Source: Streptococcus oralis (GTDB taxonomy: Bacteria > Bacillota > Bacilli > Lactobacillales > Streptococcaceae). From it: a stretch of 64,000 bases of DNA. The translations under genes and the position numbers were made by a program. Of this stretch, positions 34,756 through 60,943 are shown piece by piece. Each line of letters begins with the position of its first letter. Within the stretch, counting starts at the first letter, position 1. The notes below the pieces were generated by a model. That model was not told the origin of the DNA and made no database searches. It saw nothing but the letters and a program-made list of their open reading frames with translations. The stretch is from NCBI RefSeq assembly GCF_021497945.1, contig NZ_CP046524.1, forward strand, positions 1,647,501 to 1,711,500. The letters are read 5' to 3'.

Positions 34756-34793
34756 AGCAGCTAAATCTGACTTTTTCAGAAGATTTAACTGCT
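34756..34793 (-). promoter_or_regulatory. Terminator-like hairpin (attenuator candidate) in the rpoB leader
   Basis: Arms AGCAGCTAAATCT (34756-34768) and AGATTTAACTGCT (34781-34793) pair over 13 positions with one mismatch or wobble. On the minus strand it is followed by CTTTTTGTGCTTTTTTT. It begins about 50 bases after the predicted rpoB start site. A second, smaller hairpin (TTGTCTG/CAGACAA, about 34801-34824) precedes it. Confidence 0.7.
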
Positions 34794-34848
34794 GTGAGCC
34801 TTGTCTGGACAATATTTCAGACAAAACCTACGACAAATGATTACTCAT

Positions 34849-34966: not shown

Positions 34967-35004
34967 GGAAAACGCTTGCACTCATGTTTACCTCGTGCTA
35001 TACT
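34967..35004 (+). promoter_or_regulatory. Pullulanase promoter overlapped by a cre (CcpA) site
   Basis: GGAAAACGCTTGCA at 34967-34980 matches the cre core TGAAAACGCTTTCA at 12 of 14 positions. It overlaps the -35 TTGCAC (34977-34982); the -10 TATACT (34999-35004) follows after 16 bases. Glucose repression by CcpA is expected. Confidence 0.8.
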
Positions 35005-35035
35005 GTTAGGGAACAACTACACAAGGAGAATTGTG

Positions 35036-38000
35036 ATGAAAAAGATCCCATCTCAAACTGAGAAAAAAATGATTTATGGTATCCGTTCCTTGAAGAACGG
35101 AACTGGTTCGGTCCTTATTGGTGCCAGCATTGTCTTGCTTTCTGCTACAATGCCAACCATTTCGGCTAACGAAAACCTGCCTCAAACTCAGGAAAATACT
35201 AGCGCTGTGACCAAGGCTCCTACTGAGACTGAAACGAGTCAAATTCAAAAGGAAACGCCTATTTCTGAACAAAAGAATGCAAACGCTTCCCTTGCTTCTA
35301 AAAAGGAAGCTCCAGCTGTGGAAACTACTACAGCACCAGAAACTCCTAAAACAGAAGACGCTACTACAAGCCAGGCTAACAGCAAGGAAGAGAAAGTAGA
35401 TGCCAGCACTTCGGCGCCAAGTTCTGATCAAAAACCACAAGCAGACACTAGTTCTGAAGAACCAATCGAAGACAACTACTTCCGCATCCATGTAAAAAAA
35501 CTCCCTGAAGAAAACAAGGATTCTCAAGGTCTTTGGACTTGGGATGATGTTGAAAAGCCGTCTGAAAACTGGCCCAATGGAGCCAAGTCCTTCAAGGATG
35601 CCAAGCAAGATGACTATGGCTATTATCTCGATGTCAAACTCAAGAATGACCAAGCCAAGAAGGTCAGCTTCCTCATCAACAATACTAAAGGGGATAACCT
35701 TACTGGAGACCGTTCAGTAGAGCGCCTTTCTCCAAAAATGAATGAGGCTTGGCTAGATGAAAACTATAAGGTATACAACTACCGTCCTCAGCCAGCGGGA
35801 ACTGTCCGTGTTAACTACTATCGCACCGATGGCAACTATGACAAAAAATCTCTCTGGTATTGGGGCGATGTCAAAAACCCAAGCAGTGGAGAATGGCCTG
35901 ACGGGACAGACTTTACTGCAACTGGAAAATATGGCCGTTACATTGATATTCCACTCAATGAAGCTGCAAGAGAATTTGGATTTTTATTACTAGACGAAAG
36001 CAAGAAAGGCGATGATGTGAAAATCCGAAAAGAGGATTACAAATTTACAGATTTGAAAAATCACAGTCAAATCTTTCTCAAAGATGATGACGAAGCCATC
36101 TACACCAACCCCTATTACGTGCACGACATCCGCATGACTGGTGCCCAACACGTGGCTAAGTCTCGTATCGAAAGCAGCTTTTCTACCCTAGTTGGAGCTA
36201 AGAAAGACGATATCCTCAAACACTCCGGCATCACTGATTACCAAGGGAATAAAGTAGCTATCACAGACGTGGAAGTGGATGAAGCTGGTAAGAAAGTGAC
36301 CTATATCGGCGACTTCTCTGACACTCAACACCCGTACACTGTCAGCTACAATTCAGACCGCTTTACCACACGTTCAAGCTGGCGCCTCAAGGATGAGTCC
36401 TACAGTTACGATGGTCCACTCGGCGCAACCCTAAAAGAAGATGGCAAGCGTGTTGACCTCACCCTCTGGTCTCCAAGTGCTGATAAGGTTTCCGTTGTTG
36501 TCTATGACAAGAAAGACCCTGAAAAGGTAGTCGGAACTGTCGCCCTTGAAAAAGGAGAAAAAGGAACCTGGAAACAAACTCTGGACACAAACTCTGGTCT
36601 CGGTATCAGCAACTATACTGGCTACTACTACCACTACCAGATCGAGCGCCAAGGTAAAACCGTTCTCGTTCTTGACCCTTATGCCAAGTCACTAGCAGCT
36701 TGGAACAGTGACCTAGCAAAAACAGATGCCGCTCATAAGGTCGCTAAAGCTGCCTTTGTCGACCCATCCAAACTAGGACCGCAAGACTTGACCTATGGGA
36801 AGATTCGCAACTTCAAATCGCGTGAAGATGCCGTCATCTATGAAGCTCATGTGCGTGACTTCACTTCGGATCCTGCCATCGCAAAAGACTTGACCAAGCC
36901 ATTTGGTACCTTTGAAGCCTTTATCGAAAAATTAGACTATCTCAAAGACTTGGGTGTGACCCACATCCAGCTCCTTCCAGTCTTGTCTTACTACTTTGTC
37001 AATGAATTAAAAAACCATGAACGTTTGTCTGCCTACGCTTCAAGCAATAGCAATTACAACTGGGGATATGACCCTCAAAACTACTTCTCCTTGACTGGTA
37101 TGTACTCAAGCGATCCTAAGGATCCAGAAAAACGTATTGCCGAATTCAAAAACCTCATCAACGAAATCCACAAACGTGGCATGGGGGCTATCTTGGACGT
37201 GGTCTACAACCATACTGCAAATGTTGACATTTTTGAAGATATTGAGCCAAACTACTATCACTTTATGGACGCAGACGGAACTCCACGTACTAGCTTTGGA
37301 GGCGGCCGTTTGGGAACTACCCACTACATGTCTAAACGTGTCTTGGTAGACTCCATCAAGTATCTGGTTGAAACCTACAAAGTAGATGGTTTCCGTTTCG
37401 ATATGATGGGAGATCACGATGCAGCTTCTATTGAAGAAGCTTACAAGGCTGCACGCGCCCTCAATCCAAATCTTATCATGCTAGGTGAAGGCTGGAGAAC
37501 CTATACTGGCGATGAAAATACGCCTGTACAACCTGCTGACCAAGATTGGATGAAGAAAACAGATACTGTCGCTGTCTTTTCAGACGACATCCGTAACAAC
37601 CTCAAGTCTGGCTATCCAAACGAAGGGCAGCCTGCCTTTATCACAGGTGGCAAACGAGATATCAATACCATCTTTAAAAATCTCATTGCCCAACCAACTA
37701 ACTTTGAGGCTGACAATCCTGGAGATGTTATCCAGTATATCGCAGCCCATGATAACTTGACCCTCTTTGACATCATTGCCCAGTCTATCAAAAAAGACCC
37801 AAGCAAGGCGGAGAACTACGCTGAAATCCATCGCCGTTTGCGACTTGGAAACCTCATGGTCTTGACTGCTCAAGGAACTCCGTTTATCCACTCTGGTCAG
37901 GAATACGGACGTACCAAACAATTCCTAGACCCAGCCTATAAGACTCCTGTTCCTGAAGATAAGGTTCCAAACAAGTCTCACTTGTTGCGCGACAAGGACG

Positions 38001-38752
38001 GCAAGCCATTTGTCTATCCTTACTTTATCCATGACTCTTACGACTCTAGTGATGCTGTCAACAAGTTTGATTGGACCAAGGCAACAGATGGTAAAGCTTT
38101 CCCTGAAAATGTCAAGAGCCGTAACTACATGAAAGGTTTGATTGCCCTTCGTCAATCGACAGATGCCTTCCGACTCAAGAGTCTACAAGATATCAAAGAA
38201 CGCGTCCAACTCATTACTGTCCCAGGAAAAAATGGTGTTGAAAAAGAAGACGTGGTCATCGGCTACCAAATCACAGCTCCAAATGGAGATATCTACGCAG
38301 TCTTTGTCAATGCGGATGATAAGGCTCGCGAATTCAACTTAGGAACTGCTTTTGCTCACTTGAGAAAGGCCGAAGTTCTCGCAGATGAAAACCAAGCAGG
38401 ACCCGTAGGAATTGCTAACCCTCAAGGTCTCGAATGGACTGAAAAAGGTTTGAAATTGAACGCTCTCACTGCCGTTGTTCTCCGCTTATCTCAAGGTGGT
38501 GCCATTGTCGCCCCAGCTGTGGAAGAAAAACCAGAATTTGATCTTTCTAGCTTGGAAGTTGAACCAGAACAAGGTCAAGCCCAAAACCTAGTAGCAAATC
38601 CTGAAACTCAAGAAACTGTTGCAGAGGCTCACTCTCAGAAAGTCCTTCCAAACACAGGAACCGAGAGCAAATCCCTTCTTGCCCTTGCTGGATTCAGTAT
38701 CCTTGCCCTTCTCGGACTTGGATGGTTGATAAAAAACAAGAAAAAGAAATAA
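35036..38752 (+). CDS. spuA: Cell-wall-anchored pullulanase (GH13, SpuA type)
   Basis: A 1238-residue protein from the ATG at 35036 (AAGGAG upstream). Order: signal peptide with the YSIRK-like YGIRSLKNGTGSVLIGAS; a Ser/Thr/Glu-rich linker; two tandem CBM41 alpha-glucan-binding modules (LWTWDDVEKPSENWPNG and LWYWGDVKNPSSGEWPDG); CBM48-like region; GH13 catalytic domain with YNWGYDP, DVVYNHT, DGFRFDMMGDHD (nucleophile Asp), MLGEGW (acid/base Glu) and AAHDNLT; then LPNTG, membrane helix and KKKK tail. It cleaves alpha-1,6 bonds of glycogen-like glucans and binds host glycogen in related pathogens. A terminator shared with the convergent ABC operon follows. Confidence 0.95.
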   Translation: MKKIPSQTEKKMIYGIRSLKNGTGSVLIGASIVLLSATMPTISANENLPQTQENTSAVTKAPTETETSQIQKETPISEQKNANASLASKKEAPAVETTTAPETPKTEDATTSQANSKEEKVDASTSAPSSDQKPQADTSSEEPIEDNYFRIHVKKLPEENKDSQGLWTWDDVEKPSENWPNGAKSFKDAKQDDYGYYLDVKLKNDQAKKVSFLINNTKGDNLTGDRSVERLSPKMNEAWLDENYKVYNYRPQPAGTVRVNYYRTDGNYDKKSLWYWGDVKNPSSGEWPDGTDFTATGKYGRYIDIPLNEAAREFGFLLLDESKKGDDVKIRKEDYKFTDLKNHSQIFLKDDDEAIYTNPYYVHDIRMTGAQHVAKSRIESSFSTLVGAKKDDILKHSGITDYQGNKVAITDVEVDEAGKKVTYIGDFSDTQHPYTVSYNSDRFTTRSSWRLKDESYSYDGPLGATLKEDGKRVDLTLWSPSADKVSVVVYDKKDPEKVVGTVALEKGEKGTWKQTLDTNSGLGISNYTGYYYHYQIERQGKTVLVLDPYAKSLAAWNSDLAKTDAAHKVAKAAFVDPSKLGPQDLTYGKIRNFKSREDAVIYEAHVRDFTSDPAIAKDLTKPFGTFEAFIEKLDYLKDLGVTHIQLLPVLSYYFVNELKNHERLSAYASSNSNYNWGYDPQNYFSLTGMYSSDPKDPEKRIAEFKNLINEIHKRGMGAILDVVYNHTANVDIFEDIEPNYYHFMDADGTPRTSFGGGRLGTTHYMSKRVLVDSIKYLVETYKVDGFRFDMMGDHDAASIEEAYKAARALNPNLIMLGEGWRTYTGDENTPVQPADQDWMKKTDTVAVFSDDIRNNLKSGYPNEGQPAFITGGKRDINTIFKNLIAQPTNFEADNPGDVIQYIAAHDNLTLFDIIAQSIKKDPSKAENYAEIHRRLRLGNLMVLTAQGTPFIHSGQEYGRTKQFLDPAYKTPVPEDKVPNKSHLLRDKDGKPFVYPYFIHDSYDSSDAVNKFDWTKATDGKAFPENVKSRNYMKGLIALRQSTDAFRLKSLQDIKERVQLITVPGKNGVEKEDVVIGYQITAPNGDIYAVFVNADDKAREFNLGTAFAHLRKAEVLADENQAGPVGIANPQGLEWTEKGLKLNALTAVVLRLSQGGAIVAPAVEEKPEFDLSSLEVEPEQGQAQNLVANPETQETVAEAHSQKVLPNTGTESKSLLALAGFSILALLGLGWLIKNKKKK

Positions 38753-38889: not shown

Positions 38890-38936
38890 AAACACCCCAT
38901 GGTTAGAAGAATCTTCTAGTCATGGGGTGTTGTTTT
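38890..38936. terminator. Bidirectional terminator for spuA and the ABC importer operon
   Basis: A long near-perfect palindrome (arms about 38890-38909 and 38912-38932, containing AACACCCCATG/CATGGGGTGTT), with a T run on each side for the two convergent units. Confidence 0.9.
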
Positions 38937-38953
38937 TATGATACACTTATCTA

Positions 38954-39718
38954 TCAAATCATATATTCTACACTGTAGGTGGCATCTGATAAGATACGAG
39001 CCAGAAACTGCTTGGTGCGTTCTTCTTGTGGACGACTAAAGAAATCGTGGGGGTTATTCTCCTCTACGATACGGCCTCCATCCATGAAAATAACGTGGTT
39101 AGCGACATCTCTAGCAAATCCCATCTCATGCGTGACGACTACCATGGTCACACCTTCTCCCGCCAACTGTTTCAGAACATCCAAAACATCTCCAACCAAC
39201 TCAGGGTCTAGCGCTGATGTTGGTTCATCTAGCAAAATGACCTCGGGCTTGACGGCAATAGCACGCGCAATTCCTATTCGTTGTTGTTGCCCTCCAGATA
39301 GTTGTGAAGGGTAGTAGTCTTTATAGGCAAGTAAACCAACTTTTTCCAAGGCAGATTCTGCACGTTTGAGCGCTTCTTCCTTGGGAACTTTACGAGCCAC
39401 TATTAGGCCTTCTAGAATATTTTCCAGAGCAGTTTTGTTTGCAAATAGATTGTAGTGTTGGAAAACAAAGGCTGTTTTTTGGCGAATTTCTAGAATGTCT
39501 TTCTTGCTTAATTTGGCTAAGTCATAAGTTTTTCCTGCCAAGGTCAAATGGCCACTATCAGCTTTTTCTAAGTGGTTGAGGCAACGGAGAAAAGTCGTTT
39601 TCCCCGAACCTGATGGTCCTAAAATAACGACGACATCCCCTTGGTTGACCTGGAGATTGACATCCTCCAGGACTTGCCTCTCACCAAATGTTTTTGCGAT
39701 ATGTTCTACTTGTAACAT
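38954..39718 (-). CDS. Polar amino-acid type ABC importer, ATP-binding protein
   Basis: A 254-residue protein with Walker [10 protein letters not shown], signature LSGGQQQR, Walker [15 protein letters not shown] and H-loop [12 protein letters not shown]: the GlnQ/HisP class that energises uptake of amino acids such as glutamine, arginine or cystine. It is the last gene of a unit with two permeases, a binding protein, two methyltransferase-family proteins and a small membrane protein. The substrate is unknown. Its operon partners hint at a methylated or sulfur-containing amino compound. Confidence 0.92.
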
Positions 39719-39727
39719 CCTGTCCTC

Positions 39728-40450
39728 CTATACAAAACGCGCGCTAGATGCTTTCGCTCTCTTTTCTTTTTTCACATAGCCTTTTTCTAATACAGAAAAA
39801 CCCCACTGAATCAAACCACAGATCAAAATATACTGCAAAAAGATCACAAAATAAGATTCAAAATACTGGTAACCGTAGGACGCTTCTACACGAGCAATAG
39901 CGGTGATATCCTTGATGGTCATGACAAATACCAAGGAAGTTCCTTTGACGATATTGATCACCAGATTGGCCAAGTTAGGCAAGGCTGAGCGCAAGGCTTG
40001 AGGAAAAACAATCCTTAAATAGGCCTGGGTCGTAGTCAGCCCAATCGCATGCGCTGCCTCTAGTTGTCCCTTGTCCACCGTCAAGATAGCTGAACGCAAA
40101 ATCTCCGATAAACTCCCGACTGTCATCAAACTATAAATGATAAAGGCATAGTAGAGAGGATCAAGTTTGAAAATATCAAAGTCACTGCCTATACTTTTGA
40201 GAAATTGATTCAGCAAACTTGGAAACAAACTATAAAAGAAGAGAATCAATAAAATCGGAGGAGTCGCTCGGATAAACGCCAGATAGACCAGAGAAAAACT
40301 CCTCACCCCTCGAACCTTGTAGATTTGCCCTAAGGCCAAAAATAGAGCCGGTAAAAAGCTTAAGACCATAGCCACAACCATAATAATCAAGGTGATTGGC
40401 ACACCTTTCAAGGTCTCCAGAAAGGTCTTTACAATATAGTCTATGTCCAT
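39728..40450 (-). CDS. Amino-acid ABC importer permease
   Basis: A 240-residue HisM/GlnP-class permease with about five helices and the ATPase-contact loop EAAHAIGLTTTQAYLRIVFPQALR near residue 135. The stop is 9 bases before the ATPase start, and the gene follows the other permease by 3 bases. Together they form the membrane heterodimer. Confidence 0.92.
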   Translation of the reverse strand: MDIDYIVKTFLETLKGVPITLIIMVVAMVLSFLPALFLALGQIYKVRGVRSFSLVYLAFIRATPPILLILFFYSLFPSLLNQFLKSIGSDFDIFKLDPLYYAFIIYSLMTVGSLSEILRSAILTVDKGQLEAAHAIGLTTTQAYLRIVFPQALRSALPNLANLVINIVKGTSLVFVMTIKDITAIARVEASYGYQYFESYFVIFLQYILICGLIQWGFSVLEKGYVKKEKRAKASSARFV

Positions 40451-40453
40451 TTC

Positions 40454-41146
40454 TTACCTCCCTTTTGTTTCCAAAGACTTCTCAAGCAAACGACTCAAGC
40501 TAGAAATAATCAAGGCAATCCCCCAGTAAAGAAATGCAACCGCCGTATAGGTTTCCAGCGAGTAGTTCCCTAAATTGCGACTGATCAAGAGGTTGCCTGC
40601 CCCCATAACATCAACGAAACCAATCGTATAGGCCAAGGCAGCATCCCGCATAAGATTGAGAATAGCGGTCGTTATATTAGGAAGAGCAACTTGAAAAGCT
40701 TGAGGAAAAATGATTCTCCAAAAAGTCTGACTTGGAGTCAAACCAATACTAAGCCCGGCCTCTGTCTGCCCCTTTGGAATAGCTTGATAGGCCGCCTTGA
40801 AGACCTCGGCAACAATAGCCGCAAACAAGAGAATCATCGTCAGGAGAACAAAAATAGTTTTAGACCAGTTGTTGATATCCAAACCCAGCCACCATTTCAG
40901 AAATTCTGGCAAGCCATAAAAGACTAGAAAAAGTAAGACAATCGGCGGTGTACAACGTAGGGTAAAGATATAGCCTTTGGAAATCGCTGCAAAACTCTTG
41001 CCTTCTCCTACTTGCGCCCAGGTCAAAAGACCTCCAAAAAGGGAACCAAGAAGAGTGGTAAAAAAGAGAATGGACAAGGTCATAGGAAGTGCCTGCCATA
41101 AGGTCGGTAAAAACTGAAAGACCTTGGAAAAATCATAAGAAACCAT
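40454..41146 (-). CDS. Amino-acid ABC importer permease
   Basis: A 230-residue permease, partner of the one that follows it. The EAA loop reads TEAGLSIGLTPSQTFWRIIFPQAFQ. The N-terminal half carries the GLLTWAQVGEGKSFAAISKGYIFTLR segment typical of the glutamine/histidine permease family. It is 32 bases downstream of the binding-protein gene. Confidence 0.92.
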   Translation of the reverse strand: MVSYDFSKVFQFLPTLWQALPMTLSILFFTTLLGSLFGGLLTWAQVGEGKSFAAISKGYIFTLRCTPPIVLLFLVFYGLPEFLKWWLGLDINNWSKTIFVLLTMILLFAAIVAEVFKAAYQAIPKGQTEAGLSIGLTPSQTFWRIIFPQAFQVALPNITTAILNLMRDAALAYTIGFVDVMGAGNLLISRNLGNYSLETYTAVAFLYWGIALIISSLSRLLEKSLETKGR

Positions 41147-41178
41147 GCAAAACCCTTTCTAGTCTTGGAATTTCTGGC

Positions 41179-42057
41179 CTAGTCTTTGTCTACATAACTA
41201 AAGACATCTTCTTTAAAGTATTGCTGAGATAGCTTAGCAAGCGTACCATCTTCTTTCAACTCTTTGATTGCTTTTTCGTATTCCTTAGCGAATTTCTCAC
41301 CCTTTTCATCACGGTGAATCAAGGGATAAGTTGGAATACCCTTGTATGGGAACCAGCTGAGTTTGTCCGCATATTGGTGGTAAGGGCCATCTTCTGCGGT
41401 AACTGCTTTTTCAAAGGACAGTTTAATATCAAAGAAGGCGTCATAACGTCCTTCTAAGACCCAGGCATAGGCATCTGCTACTTTAAAGGATTCAGCTGCT
41501 GTTAGCTCAATCGGTGCATCCTGATGTTTTTCATTATAGCTGGTGATGACATTCCATTGGGCATTCTGTGGAGAGATGGGAACCAATTTTCCTTTATTCT
41601 TAGCAAAGTCATCAATGGTTTTGTATTTCTGTTCATCTTCTTTTCTGACGGTAAATCCGATGATGCTCGCTCCGACTGGTTCAGATGGAATGACAAACTT
41701 TTTAGCTCGTTCATCTGTGTACCAAGCTCCCTTTGTTCCGATGTCATACTTGCCTGATTCCAGACCAATCAAGAGGTCGTCATCACTGGTACCCGTATAT
41801 TCAAATTGATAGTTTGCCAACTTCTCATCAACAGCCTTCAAAACAGCTACTTCATAACCATCTGATTCTCCTTTTTCATTGACAAAGTCATAAGGTACAT
41901 AGTTTTGTGTATGGGCAACCTTCAAGGTTATGACTTCAGCAGACGAATCCGTTTCTCCCTCCTTGGTTGGAGCACCAGCTAAACTTCTCCCGATAATCGT
42001 TGCCCCAATTACTGCAACCACTGCTACACCACCGATAATCCATGCTTTTTTACTCAT
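41179..42057 (-). CDS. Amino-acid ABC importer substrate-binding protein, lipobox-less
   Basis: A protein of 292 residues. After a hydrophobic N-terminus (residues 5-25) comes a family-3 solute-binding fold: VAHTQNYVPYDFVNEKGESDGYEVAVLKAV, DDLLIGLESGKYDIGTKGAWYTDERAKKFVIPS and the closing LKEDGTLAKLSQQYF. No cysteine is visible anywhere, so it cannot be a lipoprotein of the usual Gram-positive kind. It is probably held by an uncleaved membrane helix or is released. It is 11 bases downstream of the first methyltransferase-family gene and in the same operon. Ligand unknown. Confidence 0.9.
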   Translation of the reverse strand: MSKKAWIIGGVAVVAVIGATIIGRSLAGAPTKEGETDSSAEVITLKVAHTQNYVPYDFVNEKGESDGYEVAVLKAVDEKLANYQFEYTGTSDDDLLIGLESGKYDIGTKGAWYTDERAKKFVIPSEPVGASIIGFTVRKEDEQKYKTIDDFAKNKGKLVPISPQNAQWNVITSYNEKHQDAPIELTAAESFKVADAYAWVLEGRYDAFFDIKLSFEKAVTAEDGPYHQYADKLSWFPYKGIPTYPLIHRDEKGEKFAKEYEKAIKELKEDGTLAKLSQQYFKEDVFSYVDKD

Positions 42058-42068
42058 CTTTTTCTCCT

Positions 42069-43067
42069 TTAGTTTTCAAGCGCTTCTCTCACCCACTGGA
42101 TACGTTTAACTGCGATATCACTTGGAATGGTACAATCTGCCCCAAGTACCAAGCCCTGTTCCCCAGCTTCTGCAACTAGTTTCTTTGCTTCAGCCTGAAT
42201 GGCATCCTTGCTACCAGTATACAGCAAGCCTGTCTTGCCATTTTCAAATCCTCCAAGAACCGTACGTCCCTTGAAAATCTCACGACCTTCCTTGAGAGTG
42301 ATTCCCTCTGGTCCTACAGCCCAGTTAAAGACTTGGGCTGGATAGTCTGCAAAAAGGTGAATATCATTTCGCGCTCCCTCGTATCCACAGATATGAAGAA
42401 CCGTGACACCACCAACAGCACTAGCTGCTTCCAGAACCGTTATCTCGCTAGGTGCAATGACGGCTTGATAATCTGCTGCCGACACTCGTTGATCTTGGAT
42501 ACTTTGCACGCTGAGGTAGATTCCGTCAGCACCAGCCTCTTCGATGACAGCTCGACTGAGACTCGCAATATCCTCTGCAATCGCATCCAACACCTTTTTA
42601 AGGGCTTTAGGATCTTCCACCAGAAAGTCTGCAATAAGGTCATCGCCACCAGACACTTCCCCAAGCAGCCACTTGAGATAGGTCACAGGAGCAAAAATAT
42701 TGTAAATCGCAACGATATCTTCTGTGAACTCTTGCTTGATTTTCTGAACCAAGTCCACCTGCTCTTTTATCCAAGCGTGATCTGGCCCGAGTGGTTGAAT
42801 GGTCGCCAATTCTTGAAGTGATTTTCCTTTGGCAATCGCTGGATTTGGATAAGCAAAGTAGCCATCACTCATGAGTTTGATAAAGTCCGGCTGAACTTCT
42901 CGGATAAAGCGCTTATGGCCCTCAATATTCTTCTCGATAATGACTGGATTTGAAAAACCGTGTAGCCATTCGTCTTCGGATGTGAAATGGTGCCAAAAGC
43001 CAACTGGCACACGATCAACCTTTTCACCTTTAAATGCTTTTAAAACCCATTCTTTTTTTTCTGACAT
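42069..43067 (-). CDS. UroD/MtaA-superfamily protein with methyltransferase zinc site (paralogue 1)
   Basis: A 332-residue TIM-barrel protein of the uroporphyrinogen decarboxylase/cobalamin methyltransferase superfamily. It starts ERVPVGFW-like (DRVPVGFWHHF). Residues H225-x-C227 (VLHICGYEG) and C312 (LGADCTIPSD) make the HxC...C zinc site seen in MtaA/MtbA/CmuA-type methyltransferases but not in true heme UroD. It probably moves a methyl group to or from a thiol. The ATG at 43067 sits 2 bases past the stop of the small membrane protein gene. A close paralogue is encoded 5' in the same operon. Streptococci make no heme, so heme synthesis is not its job. Substrate unknown. Confidence 0.82.
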   Translation of the reverse strand: MSEKKEWVLKAFKGEKVDRVPVGFWHHFTSEDEWLHGFSNPVIIEKNIEGHKRFIREVQPDFIKLMSDGYFAYPNPAIAKGKSLQELATIQPLGPDHAWIKEQVDLVQKIKQEFTEDIVAIYNIFAPVTYLKWLLGEVSGGDDLIADFLVEDPKALKKVLDAIAEDIASLSRAVIEEAGADGIYLSVQSIQDQRVSAADYQAVIAPSEITVLEAASAVGGVTVLHICGYEGARNDIHLFADYPAQVFNWAVGPEGITLKEGREIFKGRTVLGGFENGKTGLLYTGSKDAIQAEAKKLVAEAGEQGLVLGADCTIPSDIAVKRIQWVREALEN

Positions 43068-43069
43068 TC

Positions 43070-43273
43070 TTATTCTCCATTTCTTACTTTTTCAACTAAT
43101 AAACTGCTTGCGATATCATTCGAGCGTAGAAAGGGGAGACTGGACTTGGAAAAATCCTGAACTCCACGACATCTCTCTCCATTTTTGCAGTGCCCATTTT
43201 TTACGACGCTTATGGCAACCAAGGCCAGCAAACCGACAACTGCAATGAAGATGCCCCATCTTTTACTTTTCAT
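43070..43273 (-). CDS. Small single-helix membrane protein between the two methyltransferase genes
   Basis: A 67-residue protein: one N-terminal helix (about residues 6-24, GIFIAVVGLLALVAISVV), then KNGHCKNGERCRG with two cysteines, and a hydrophilic tail. GGAGG precedes the ATG, and its 3' end contains the ribosome site of the next gene, so it is probably translated. No family is recognised. The Cys pair on the outside or inside face could bind a metal or form a disulfide. Confidence 0.65.
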   Translation of the reverse strand: MKSKRWGIFIAVVGLLALVAISVVKNGHCKNGERCRGVQDFSKSSLPFLRSNDIASSLLVEKVRNGE

Positions 43274-43284
43274 AGCTCCTCCTT

Positions 43285-44289
43285 TTAGAGAACAGCCGCC
43301 TGCCGAATCCAGTCCAACCTCTCTAAGTCAAAGTCATCTGGAACAGTACAGTCAGCTCCCAGAAGAACGCCTTTACTACCAGCTTCAGCCAGCAACCGTC
43401 TTGTTTCATCTTGCAATTCCGCTTTGGAACCTTGATAAAGCAAGCTTTTCTTGCCATTTTCGAATCCACCTAAAACGGCCTTATCTCGGAATAACTCTTG
43501 ACCCTGTGTCAAACTAACATCCTCATGGTGGGTCGCCCAGTTGACCACTTGAGCTGGATAGTCCTTAAATATCGTCACATCATTGCTCGCACCTTCAAAA
43601 CCACAGATATGGAGGATATTGGTCCCACCAACCTGATTGGCTGCCTTTAAAACTGCTATATTGCTCGGTTCGATATAGGTTTGGTAGAGTGCTGGTGTGA
43701 TGCGCTCATCTTGAATTTCCTGGGTGCTGAGGTAAATCCCGTCAACACCGCCTTGCTGGATGATTTTCTGAGTTAGGATAGCAATATCTCCTGCAATCAC
43801 ATCTAGAATCGCTCTGAATTGCTCAGGATTTTCAAGCAATAGATCAGCCACTTCCCTATCTCCTCGAGAAGTTTCTGTACGGAACCAGCGCTTGAGGTAG
43901 GAGATAGGCGAAAAGATATTGTAGAAAGAAGCAATCTCTTCGGTAAAGGTCTCTCGAATCGCTTGTACCACTTCCACCTGTTGCTGAATCCATGGGTGTT
44001 CCTCACCAATCGACTCAATAGAAGTCAGCTCCTGAATGCTTGCAATCTTAGGACTATAGACATTACTTGGATAAAGGAAAAAACCATCGCTCATAATTTT
44101 GACAAAATCAGGGCGAATCCTTTCCACATAGTTGCGATGCCCATCAACACTTTTTTGAAAGATACGTGGATTATTTAATCCCTGCCCCTTTTCTTCGAGT
44201 GTTACAAAATGAAACCAAAATCCCACAGGAACTCTTTCCACTTCATCGCCTCTAATCGCTCTAAAGACTAGATCTCTTTTACTTGCCAT
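43285..44289 (-). CDS. UroD/MtaA-superfamily protein with methyltransferase zinc site (paralogue 2)
   Basis: A 334-residue protein from the ATG at 44289 (MASKRDLVFRAIRG), chosen because GAAGGAG is close upstream and because it aligns with the start of the paralogue; the frame extends 13 codons further without need. H227-x-C229 (ILHICGFEG) and C314 (LGADCTVPDD) reproduce the zinc site. The paralogues share the same overall layout, including FENGK.LLY.GSK, so they arose by duplication and may act on related substrates or form a heterodimer. First gene of the operon. Confidence 0.82.
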   Translation of the reverse strand: MASKRDLVFRAIRGDEVERVPVGFWFHFVTLEEKGQGLNNPRIFQKSVDGHRNYVERIRPDFVKIMSDGFFLYPSNVYSPKIASIQELTSIESIGEEHPWIQQQVEVVQAIRETFTEEIASFYNIFSPISYLKRWFRTETSRGDREVADLLLENPEQFRAILDVIAGDIAILTQKIIQQGGVDGIYLSTQEIQDERITPALYQTYIEPSNIAVLKAANQVGGTNILHICGFEGASNDVTIFKDYPAQVVNWATHHEDVSLTQGQELFRDKAVLGGFENGKKSLLYQGSKAELQDETRRLLAEAGSKGVLLGADCTVPDDFDLERLDWIRQAAVL

Positions 44290-44348
44290 ACCTTTCTCCT
44301 TCCATTTGGATTGAAACCATCTTACCACTCCTTTTCCCCTTTTCCCAA

Positions 44349-44377
44349 TATATATTGACTATCAACTCGATTGGAAA
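44349..44377 (-). promoter_or_regulatory. Probable promoter of the methyltransferase-ABC operon
   Basis: -35 TTTCCA (44372-44377), 17-base spacer, -10 TATATA (44349-44354) on the minus strand. The spacer holds the palindrome TTGATAGTCAA (44355-44365), a possible operator. No T-box, SAM riboswitch or CodY box was recognised. Confidence 0.45.
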
Positions 44378-44441: not shown

Positions 44442-44518
44442 ATACTCATTGTTTTCAAATGATGTTCTTTATGATATGAAATTTTTATAAGCTTGATAAG
44501 AATTATTTATACTCAGTC

Positions 44519-53421: not shown

Positions 53422-53514
53422 AAAAAATAAGCCGCCTGATTGGGCGACTTTATTTTATAGGGAGATTATTATGAAAAAGTTTTAGGAGTTTAAGTTAAGT
53501 TTTTCTTAACTTAT
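53422..53514 (-). ncRNA. csRNA-family small RNA (CiaR-dependent), copy A
   Basis: About 92 bases from a start near 53514 to a terminator (GTCGCCCAATCAGGCGGC then TTATTTTTT). The 5' end folds into AAGTTAAG-AAAA-CTTAACTT. A single-stranded middle holds ACTCCTAAAAC and TCATAATAATCTCCC, complementary to Shine-Dalgarno and AUG sequences, which is the hallmark of the csRNAs. The promoter is the CiaR site at 53521-53553. These RNAs inhibit translation of targets such as comC. Ends are predicted. Confidence 0.8.
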
Positions 53515-53520
53515 GGGTTT

Positions 53521-55133: not shown

Positions 55134-55232
55134 CAAAAAAGCCACCTGATTGGGTGGCCTCTTTAGGGAGATTATTATGAAAAAGAAAGGATTAGGATTT
55201 CATTAAATAAAGTTAGGAGGTCTTTATTTAAT
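55134..55232 (-). ncRNA. csRNA-family small RNA (CiaR-dependent), copy B
   Basis: About 99 bases. The first stem is ATTAAATAAAG/CTTTATTTAAT with the loop ACCTCCTAA, which presents an anti-Shine-Dalgarno CCTCC. A single-stranded part includes AATCCTTTC and TCATAATAATCTCCC. It ends in a terminator, GCCACCCAATCAGGTGGC then T6. It shares its terminator loop and middle with copies A and C. Confidence 0.85.
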
Positions 55233-60742: not shown

Positions 60743-60943
60743 CAAAAAAGTCACCTGATTGGGTGACTTCTTTAGGAGATTATGATGAAAAAGAAAAGTT
60801 TAGGATTTCATTAAATAAAGGGTACTCAATGAAAATCGAAATCAGACTAGGCAGATAGGCGCAAGCATAACTATAGTTAGCTAAGTCGACTCTAACGAAG
60901 GTTGATGAGATTTTCGAAGAGTATTAGGAGGTCTTTATTTAAT
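60743..60943 (-). ncRNA. csRNA-family small RNA, copy C, interrupted by a BOX-like element
   Basis: The same parts as copy B: ATTAAATAAAGACCTCCTAA at the 5' end, CTTTATTTAAT and GAAATCCTAAAC further on, TCATCATAATCTCC, and the GTCACCCAATCAGGTGAC terminator with a T tail. In copy B the first stem-loop is unbroken; here about 102 extra bases (60823-60924) sit inside its loop. The predicted transcript is about 200 bases instead of about 100. It may be non-functional or altered. Confidence 0.75.
60823..60924. repeat. BOX-like element inserted in csRNA copy C
   Basis: On the minus strand it begins ATACTCTTCGAAAATCTC and ends GATTTTCATTGAGTA, like BOX ends. The interior (CTATAGTTATGCTTGCGCC) differs from the BOX after the pullulanase gene. 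Removing it joins the two halves of the csRNA stem seen intact in copy B. Confidence 0.75.

Follow-up and report, generated by a model that had tools for sequence, protein, structure and literature searches.

The stretch of DNA analysed here, called the window, comprises 64,000 nucleotides of the Streptococcus oralis contig NZ_CP046524.1 (assembly GCF_021497945.1, positions 1,647,501 to 1,711,500) and carries on its minus strand, from 44289 to 38954, a run of seven open reading frames (ORFs) at the place given by an earlier note, which was made from the letters of the sequence. In the 5′ to 3′ direction the genes encode a UroD-superfamily protein (U1), a small protein (S), a second UroD-superfamily protein (U2) and the binding protein, two permeases (P1, P2) and ATPase of an ATP-binding cassette (ABC) importer. 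The features of the locus, in window coordinates, are:

43285..44289, minus strand: U1, UroD-superfamily protein of 334 amino acids, first gene (URO-D 61.2 bits)
43070..43273, minus strand: S, 67 amino acids, a single hydrophobic segment in the N-terminal part and an [SN]D[IL]AxxLL motif in the C-terminal part (ORF and homologues)
42069..43067, minus strand: U2, UroD-superfamily protein of 332 amino acids (URO-D 77.9 bits; model pLDDT 89.2)
41179..42057, minus strand: substrate-binding protein, SBP_bac_3, with a predicted N-terminal helix without lipobox Cys (Pfam)
40454..41146, minus strand: ABC permease P1, polar amino acid/cystine type (Pfam and NCBIfam)
39728..40450, minus strand: ABC permease P2 (Pfam and NCBIfam)
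38954..39718, minus strand: ABC ATPase, top NCBIfam model L-cystine TcyN (314 bits, cut-off 406)
44348..44372, minus strand: conserved promoter block AATCGAGTTGATAGTCAATATATAT, 5′ of U1 (pattern comparison)
38891..38931, no strand assigned, reported as a plus-strand site: strong symmetric stem-loop

The genes are separated, from U1 to the ATPase, by 11, 2, 11, 32, 3 and 9 nucleotides, and the Pfam scan recognised URO-D in U1 and U2 (cut-off 23.9 bits), SBP_bac_3, BPD_transp_1 twice and ABC_tran, which confirms the earlier description of seven same-strand genes with tight spacing (gaps of 2 to 32 nucleotides) and these product types. The start of U1 was taken as an ATG within a longer ORF whose opening is at 44328. 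U1 and U2 are the only two URO-D proteins of this genome, a single contig of 1.94 Mb.

Both UroD-family proteins had been said to keep a His-x-Cys pair and a distal Cys, and these positions proved exact (H227, C229 and C314 in U1; H225, C227 and C312 in U2). Together with an Asn they make up four columns, H, C, N and C, that are kept in 125 of 125 full-length streptococcal copies, both paralogues included; the other three of the 128 sequences examined are pieces, two of them from one U1 gene split by a stop (its 229-amino-acid piece was left out of the full-length copies) and one a short fragment. Judged from the aligned copies, this conservation is far above chance. In an alignment with 4ay7 the His-x-Cys...Cys columns match zinc-ligand positions, which we take to be those of MtaA. 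The accessible part of PMC539065 hints that the zinc ligands of MtaA are one His and two Cys. None of the HemE models of NCBIfam matched U1 or U2 at E 0.01, although Pfam URO-D matches both, and URO-D was the sole family over cut-off in the Pfam scan, with no match of U to PF01717 (Meth_synt_2). The MtaA/CmuA model TIGR01463 gave 34.8 and 32.5 bits, far below its cut-off of 235.4, so the membership of this subfamily proposed in the earlier note did not hold; of the profile comparison with UroD, MtaA and CmuA that it had called for, the general URO-D match stood and neither subfamily assignment did. The constancy of the four columns and the lack of a HemE match support, as far as sequence can, a zinc-thiolate-type UroD-superfamily protein rather than HemE, and the same lack disfavours a HemE role for U. 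The predicted fold alone does not decide between the two types in the models compared.

The linkage of U with the importer was followed across genomes. U was matched in 81 of 197 Streptococcus genomes, and after removal of G161 (a fragment) and G173 (another UroD type) there were 79, exactly the genomes in which the binding protein was found (in G127 its gene is split over two frames and was counted as present). From 80 genomes 81 streptococcal loci were fetched, 78 of them with U (47 with two U genes, 31 with a single one). The binding protein, P1 and P2 lie directly downstream of U in all 78, and the ATPase gene comes after them in 77 and, in the one remaining locus, ahead of U; the suggestion that the ABC and UroD-like genes stay together in other genomes was thus borne out, both by co-occurrence (79/79) and by neighbourhood (78/78). 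A divergent LysR gene is present in 13 of these loci. Outside Streptococcus, among 11 loci (L028–L038), seven have the ABC set, counting L033, for which the ORF picker gave permeases only, and four are without it; in between, the loci of Trichococcus and Sedimentibacter contain a Gfo/Idh/MocA oxidoreductase together with a second UroD type. In 13 of 398 Bacillota genomes U was matched at 1e-30: the four non-streptococcal matches below 1e-100 have ABC genes alongside, with the full set listed for L087 and L088 and part of it for L086 and L089, and the seven weaker matches have none listed alongside. Weaker relatives outside the ABC-linked clade (L090–L097, some on short contigs) have no context in common with the window operon. 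Two lactobacillar plasmids carry U and the ABC set in a different gene order, the Nicoliella one with two tandem UroD genes, and a third, of L. mucosae, carries U without these neighbours.

Several further arrangements were seen at these loci. On plasmid p1 of L. kefiri (Lentilactobacillus), which is mobilizable and has transposase genes close by, a UroD gene, an ABC importer and an ATC-hydrolase-family protein stand in one gene run (L215:7995-12642). A second UroD kind, with His-x-His, Asn and Cys, occurs with a related ABC importer at L105:7293-12598 (G173) and in L180 (G043), and the LysR gene adjacent in L105 is 64% like the LysR beside U. The pairing of UroD and importer arose or spread more than once. 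G161 has a remnant of the operon: one 307-amino-acid frame (L104:7860-8783) covers the position of the U fragment (137 profile positions) and also has a partial match, at 98% identity, to the window ATPase. This suggests that an internal deletion occurred recently. An M20 amidohydrolase gene lies between LysR and U in one species (L102:9052-10191), and in others a second binding protein, GNAT and GST-like genes come after the ATPase (L024:12121-14662).

In a quick tree of 50 rows, some deep forks of which are open, U1 formed one clade (SH-aLRT 100) and U2 grouped with the single-copy enzymes of other streptococci; therefore U1 is probably the derived paralogue, duplicated within Streptococcus. 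Ten positions separate U1 consistently from the remaining copies, among them 229, beside the site. Each of the 47 fetched two-U loci has a homologue of S between U1 and U2; in the 31 fetched loci with a single U gene, the motif of S was not seen upstream of that gene. The hydrophobic stretch and the C-terminal motif are the conserved parts of S, differences in its gene are concentrated at third codon positions in four of four pairs compared, and S is, by its sequence features, an exported-looking small protein. A database search with S gave 401 homologues at E 0.01; among the matches listed (120) they are 65–81 amino acids long, have no Pfam domains and belong, where the organism is named, to Streptococcus. 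The Cys pair that the earlier note singled out in S is not conserved (19 of 40 distinct homologues have two or more Cys) and was rejected as a functional feature.

The operon unites the three domain types of a polar amino-acid ABC importer (SBP_bac_3, BPD_transp_1 and ABC_tran). All its components fell below the NCBIfam cut-offs for L-cystine importers (ATPase 314.3 against 406, permeases 112 and 99 against 300, binding protein 62.6 against 312), which are strict, because reference tcyBC-like permeases fail them too. By profile, Foldseek and VIA-align the nearest solved binding proteins are GshT, TcyK, YxeM and cystine receptors, at 22–26% identity, and a sulfur-compound type of binding protein is predicted. 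Residues were compared in hand-picked sets of 19 (A1) and 21 (A2) sequences, and W112 and R117 are invariant across A2. The canonical positions of such proteins are presumably, as in HisJ/LAO, Ser/Thr and Arg for the carboxylate and Asp for the amine. Here Arg117 is kept, a Trp takes the Ser/Thr position before it, and Ile or Val (Pro in plasmid relatives) stands at the position of the amine Asp; TcyK likewise departs from the canonical residues at these positions. Of the amino-acid importer claimed in the earlier note, the domain types therefore stand, but the substrate class is uncertain, because the α-amine Asp is missing and an aromatic residue replaces Ser/Thr. The N-terminal 38 residues of the binding-protein model are of low confidence, and the streptococcal protein seems to be anchored by its N-terminal helix, which has no lipobox Cys. 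The binding proteins of Trichococcus, Sedimentibacter and Anaerobium carry a GC-type lipobox.

Plasmid relatives of the binding protein (30–36% identity) come in 36 of 38 records from Rhizobium, Pantoea and Thioclava. In four inspected proteobacterial plasmids of these genera (L221–L224) the ABC genes are accompanied by LysR, a flavoprotein of 484–491 amino acids and peroxidase-related annotations, and UroD is absent from the cluster. Pfam recognised Pyr_redox and Lys/Orn oxygenase domains in three of the flavoproteins, and a CMD domain over cut-off was confirmed in one Thioclava protein. We suggest, tentatively, that UroD and the flavin oxygenase-like protein are two enzyme solutions to one kind of solute.

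A link to sulfur is also suggested by the promoter. When up to two mismatches are allowed, the genome has one more site matching the block before U1, ahead of tcyBC-like permease and ATPase genes; at up to three there are 18 sites against 5 for the backwards control. Sites were also sought with the CYS-box TGATA-N9-TATCA-N3-TGATA, a pattern reportedly described by Kovaleva and Gelfand in 2007, which we take to be the CmbR/CysR operator. This box gave 13 matches against 4 for the backwards control in genome G000, 23 against 4 in G133 and 12 against 3 in G171. In G133 six distinct sites have at most one mismatch; besides U1 they include a tcyB-like permease, a MetQ-like lipoprotein and a polar amino-acid permease pair, and the remaining two look unrelated. 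A box with one mismatch lies upstream of U1 in 11 of 48 two-U promoters, always at -97, and in one of 30 single-U promoters (one of the 31 single-U loci was left out, its upstream region being too short). According to the accessible text of PMC5131005, CmbR represses tcyB, spd-0618, gshT, metEF and others in S. pneumoniae, and the operator is written there differently from the box used here. Since the CYS-box of the window's own promoter is poor and those of some relatives are better, the cysteine-responsive regulation of the operon in this strain is a prediction from relatives. The sulfur context assumed in the earlier note thus gains support, with gaps, from the promoter evidence and from the binding-protein neighbours GshT, TcyK and YxeM. 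A further site tried as operator, 44472-44498, flanked by the stop of glmS and a stem-loop preceding U1, is weak.

The operon is flanked by a glmS-like gene and by a convergent long ORF (34976-38752) resembling an LPXTG pullulanase, both recognised by eye, and the stem-loop at 38891..38931, between this ORF and the ATPase gene, is a probable terminator. Elsewhere in the window, Rfam matches over threshold are three Cia-dependent csRNAs (53425-53515, 55135-55232 and 60744-60830) and a Lacto-rpoB leader (34781-34838).

The earlier note saw no corrinoid protein nearby, which agrees with the search for the B12-binding domain PF02310: there is none in the own genome and none over cut-off in the 197 Streptococcus genomes, where four, including two with U, gave sub-threshold matches of 20–21 bits (cut-off 32.1); of 14 control genomes, 12 were positive in the same search. 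The own genome encodes MetE beside a 290-amino-acid MetF-like ORF (MetF by eye) and has no PF02574 homocysteine methyltransferase.

We read the operon as a putative sulfur-starvation salvage module, and to corrinoid-free thiol alkyltransfer acting on an imported sulfur-related solute we give a probability of roughly 0.45. The ABC transporter would import an alkylated, probably methylated, sulfur-related solute, and U1 and U2 would hold a cellular thiol as zinc thiolate through the His, the two Cys and perhaps the Asn, so that the alkyl group of the solute could be moved onto the zinc-bound thiol with no corrinoid involved. For donor and acceptor we infer that the likeliest would be, respectively, sulfonium or quaternary compounds such as S-methylmethionine, because these are able to methylate a thiolate directly, and homocysteine, which would become methionine; methyl transfer to homocysteine specifically is doubtful. 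Of the elements of this reading, the gene content, the linkage, the conserved residues and the missing corrinoid-binding domains are observations; the fold, the response to cysteine and the type of binding protein are sequence predictions; and zinc, reaction, donor and acceptor are inferred.

A number of observations weigh against this salvage reading. Direct alkyl transfer from a thioether, unlike that from an onium, would be chemically hard without a corrinoid. The nearest folds to the U model by Z are those of HemE (29–30), slightly above MtaA (28.1), and the LAO-binding protein ties within one Z unit with the nearest structures of the binding protein. Aligned by hhalign with the own MetE (a single sequence), the U profile gave no usable match, MetE homology being undetectable by sequence. 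The U1 promoter of G171 is not among the 12 CYS-box hits of that genome, and the best box of the window's own promoter has three mismatches, a score equalled by 4 of 100 shuffles. Relatives of U occur without this ABC set in three Bifidobacterium loci and one Clostridia metagenome-assembled genome. Of the 79 U genomes 77 encode MetE, against 85 of the 118 others (15 weak PF01717 matches not counted), and 43 of the 79 have PF02574 methyltransferases, against 33 of the 118, so that methionine synthesis by itself does not require U; U as a MetE replacement was rejected on the first count, and U as an MmuM replacement is weak on the second. Finally, the transporter is treated as a cystine importer in the accessible text of published papers.

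This label fits another explanation, somewhat unlikely in our view, in which the importer takes up a cysteine derivative (cystine, an S-substituted cysteine or a ring form, e.g., thiazoline carboxylate) from which U would release the cysteine through a zinc-assisted cleavage other than methyl transfer, the gain being sulfur and not the methyl group. The kinship of the binding protein with GshT, TcyK and YxeM would suit it, as would the end of the L. kefiri plasmid cluster, a PF14196 ATC hydrolase (64.5 bits, cut-off 28.1), the M20 amidohydrolase of L102 and the GNAT and GST-like genes of L024. Such M20, GNAT and GST-like genes are contained in Bacillus sulfur salvage operons. Beside U in L037 lies a PF03313 gene (Serine dehydratase alpha chain), a family that we take to be linked to cysteine desulfidase. 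However, the ATC hydrolase stands beside U in one cluster only of the loci examined, a relative of it lies near restriction genes in one enterobacterial plasmid inspected, a second Lentilactobacillus plasmid has a partial homologue with no UroD gene listed nearby, and we know of no UroD-superfamily enzyme of the cysteine-releasing kind.

Strict S-methylmethionine salvage, with the ABC system importing this compound and U replacing MmuM, would agree with an own genome that has neither a PF02574 nor a PF02310 protein and with the lack of PF02574 in 35 of 48 two-U genomes against 1 of 31 single-U genomes; yet this contrast tracks species groups and is not independent, and across the 197 genomes U and PF02574 are positively associated, which makes such a replacement distinctly unlikely. 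That U is a UroD-type decarboxylase or lyase which keeps the residues by chance, with no zinc alkyltransferase activity, is very unlikely, given the invariant columns in all full-length copies of both paralogues and the missing HemE match; HemE is described as not a metalloenzyme in the accessible part of PMC539065. Least probable by far is a corrinoid-dependent enzyme using free, scavenged cobalamin, which has a precedent in the superfamily (PMC10418091) and is disfavoured by the B12-domain search above. Taken together, a strongly conserved import-plus-enzyme module is real, the evidence for its sulfur role is suggestive, and no particular reaction is supported by the data; the central idea of the earlier note stands.

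Related systems share parts of this arrangement. The Bacillus TcyJKLMN/Ytm and Yxe systems resemble the window operon in that their ABC importer is of the polar amino-acid type and its binding protein of the TcyK (YtmK)/YxeM kind; the enzymes that they use are monooxygenase, acetyltransferase and deacetylase, not UroD. Epoxide:coenzyme M transferase alkylates a thiol without a corrinoid and belongs to a pathway different from that of the U operon. It is named as a UroD-superfamily member in PMC10418091. The soluble coenzyme M methyltransferases MtaA/MtbA and the Mlp proteins (PMC10418091) share with U the UroD barrel and a His-Cys-Cys type site, but U is about 20% identical to MtaA/MtbA on structural alignment, scores under the NCBIfam cut-offs and comes with an ABC importer and no corrinoid protein found. 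The core methionine synthases MesA–MesD are short enzymes that contain zinc and have a fold of this class, and MesD is reported to require neither methyl-folate nor cobalamin (PMC7857596); U differs from them in belonging to PF01208 without PF01717, in the Asn at the fourth position instead of Glu/Asp and in the lack of a MetE sequence match.

The operon is not wholly undescribed, contrary to the earlier note. By its descriptions SMU.932-SMU.936 of S. mutans is the same kind of gene set, the window operon differing in its two UroD paralogues, S and the lack of an adjacent LysR gene. Mevalonate genes adjoin the operon in mutans-type loci, and we take those of S. mutans to be SMU.937-939. The C-terminal decapeptides printed in the accessible part of PMC10782952, IAWVKEAVTL for SMU.932 and GEDVFNYVTK for SMU.933, recur unchanged at the C termini of U from S. 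macacae and of the binding proteins from S. ratti and S. orisasini, respectively; therefore SMU.932-936 is the S. mutans counterpart. The accessible texts call it a potential L-cystine transporter (PMC5361627) and state that tcyDEFGH is activated by HomR and takes part in the transport of cysteine (PMC5131005, quoting Sperandio, 2010). That the two are one and the same is very probable, although the equation is our own: the accessible parts of the open-licence literature searched neither make it outright nor assign a reaction or UroD chemistry to SMU.932. The same kind of source reports lower expression of SMU.932-936 in saliva and under manganese restriction, higher expression beside S. mitis, and altered expression in several mutants or knock-downs. 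New here are the promoter and binding-protein evidence that points, with gaps, to sulfur scavenging, the atypical binding protein, its plasmid relatives beside a flavin oxygenase-like protein, and S in all of the duplicated pairs fetched.

Among the 197 Streptococcus genomes sampled, 79 have the operon. Expression of its S. mutans counterpart is altered in many data sets of the literature, where, in the texts accessible, this counterpart is labelled an amino-acid/cystine transporter and its UroD gene is unnamed or hypothetical. A 'uroporphyrinogen metabolism pathway' reported as down-regulated in the accessible part of an S. oralis study may be this operon, and if the salvage reading is true, such a label misleads. 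B12-free zinc thiol alkylation would then be common in the sulfur scavenging of the mouth and of some other Gram-positive fermenters. The operon might even represent a family of thiol methyltransferases that are supplied by a transporter and need neither folate nor corrinoid. Imported oniums would pass their methyl group directly to zinc-bound homocysteine in a UroD barrel, and a binding-protein subfamily would recognise a methylated cation instead of a free amino acid; this wider proposal is unlikely as it stands, but if true, the family would be the oxygen-free counterpart, in fermentative bacteria, to the oxygenase-linked importers of aerobes.

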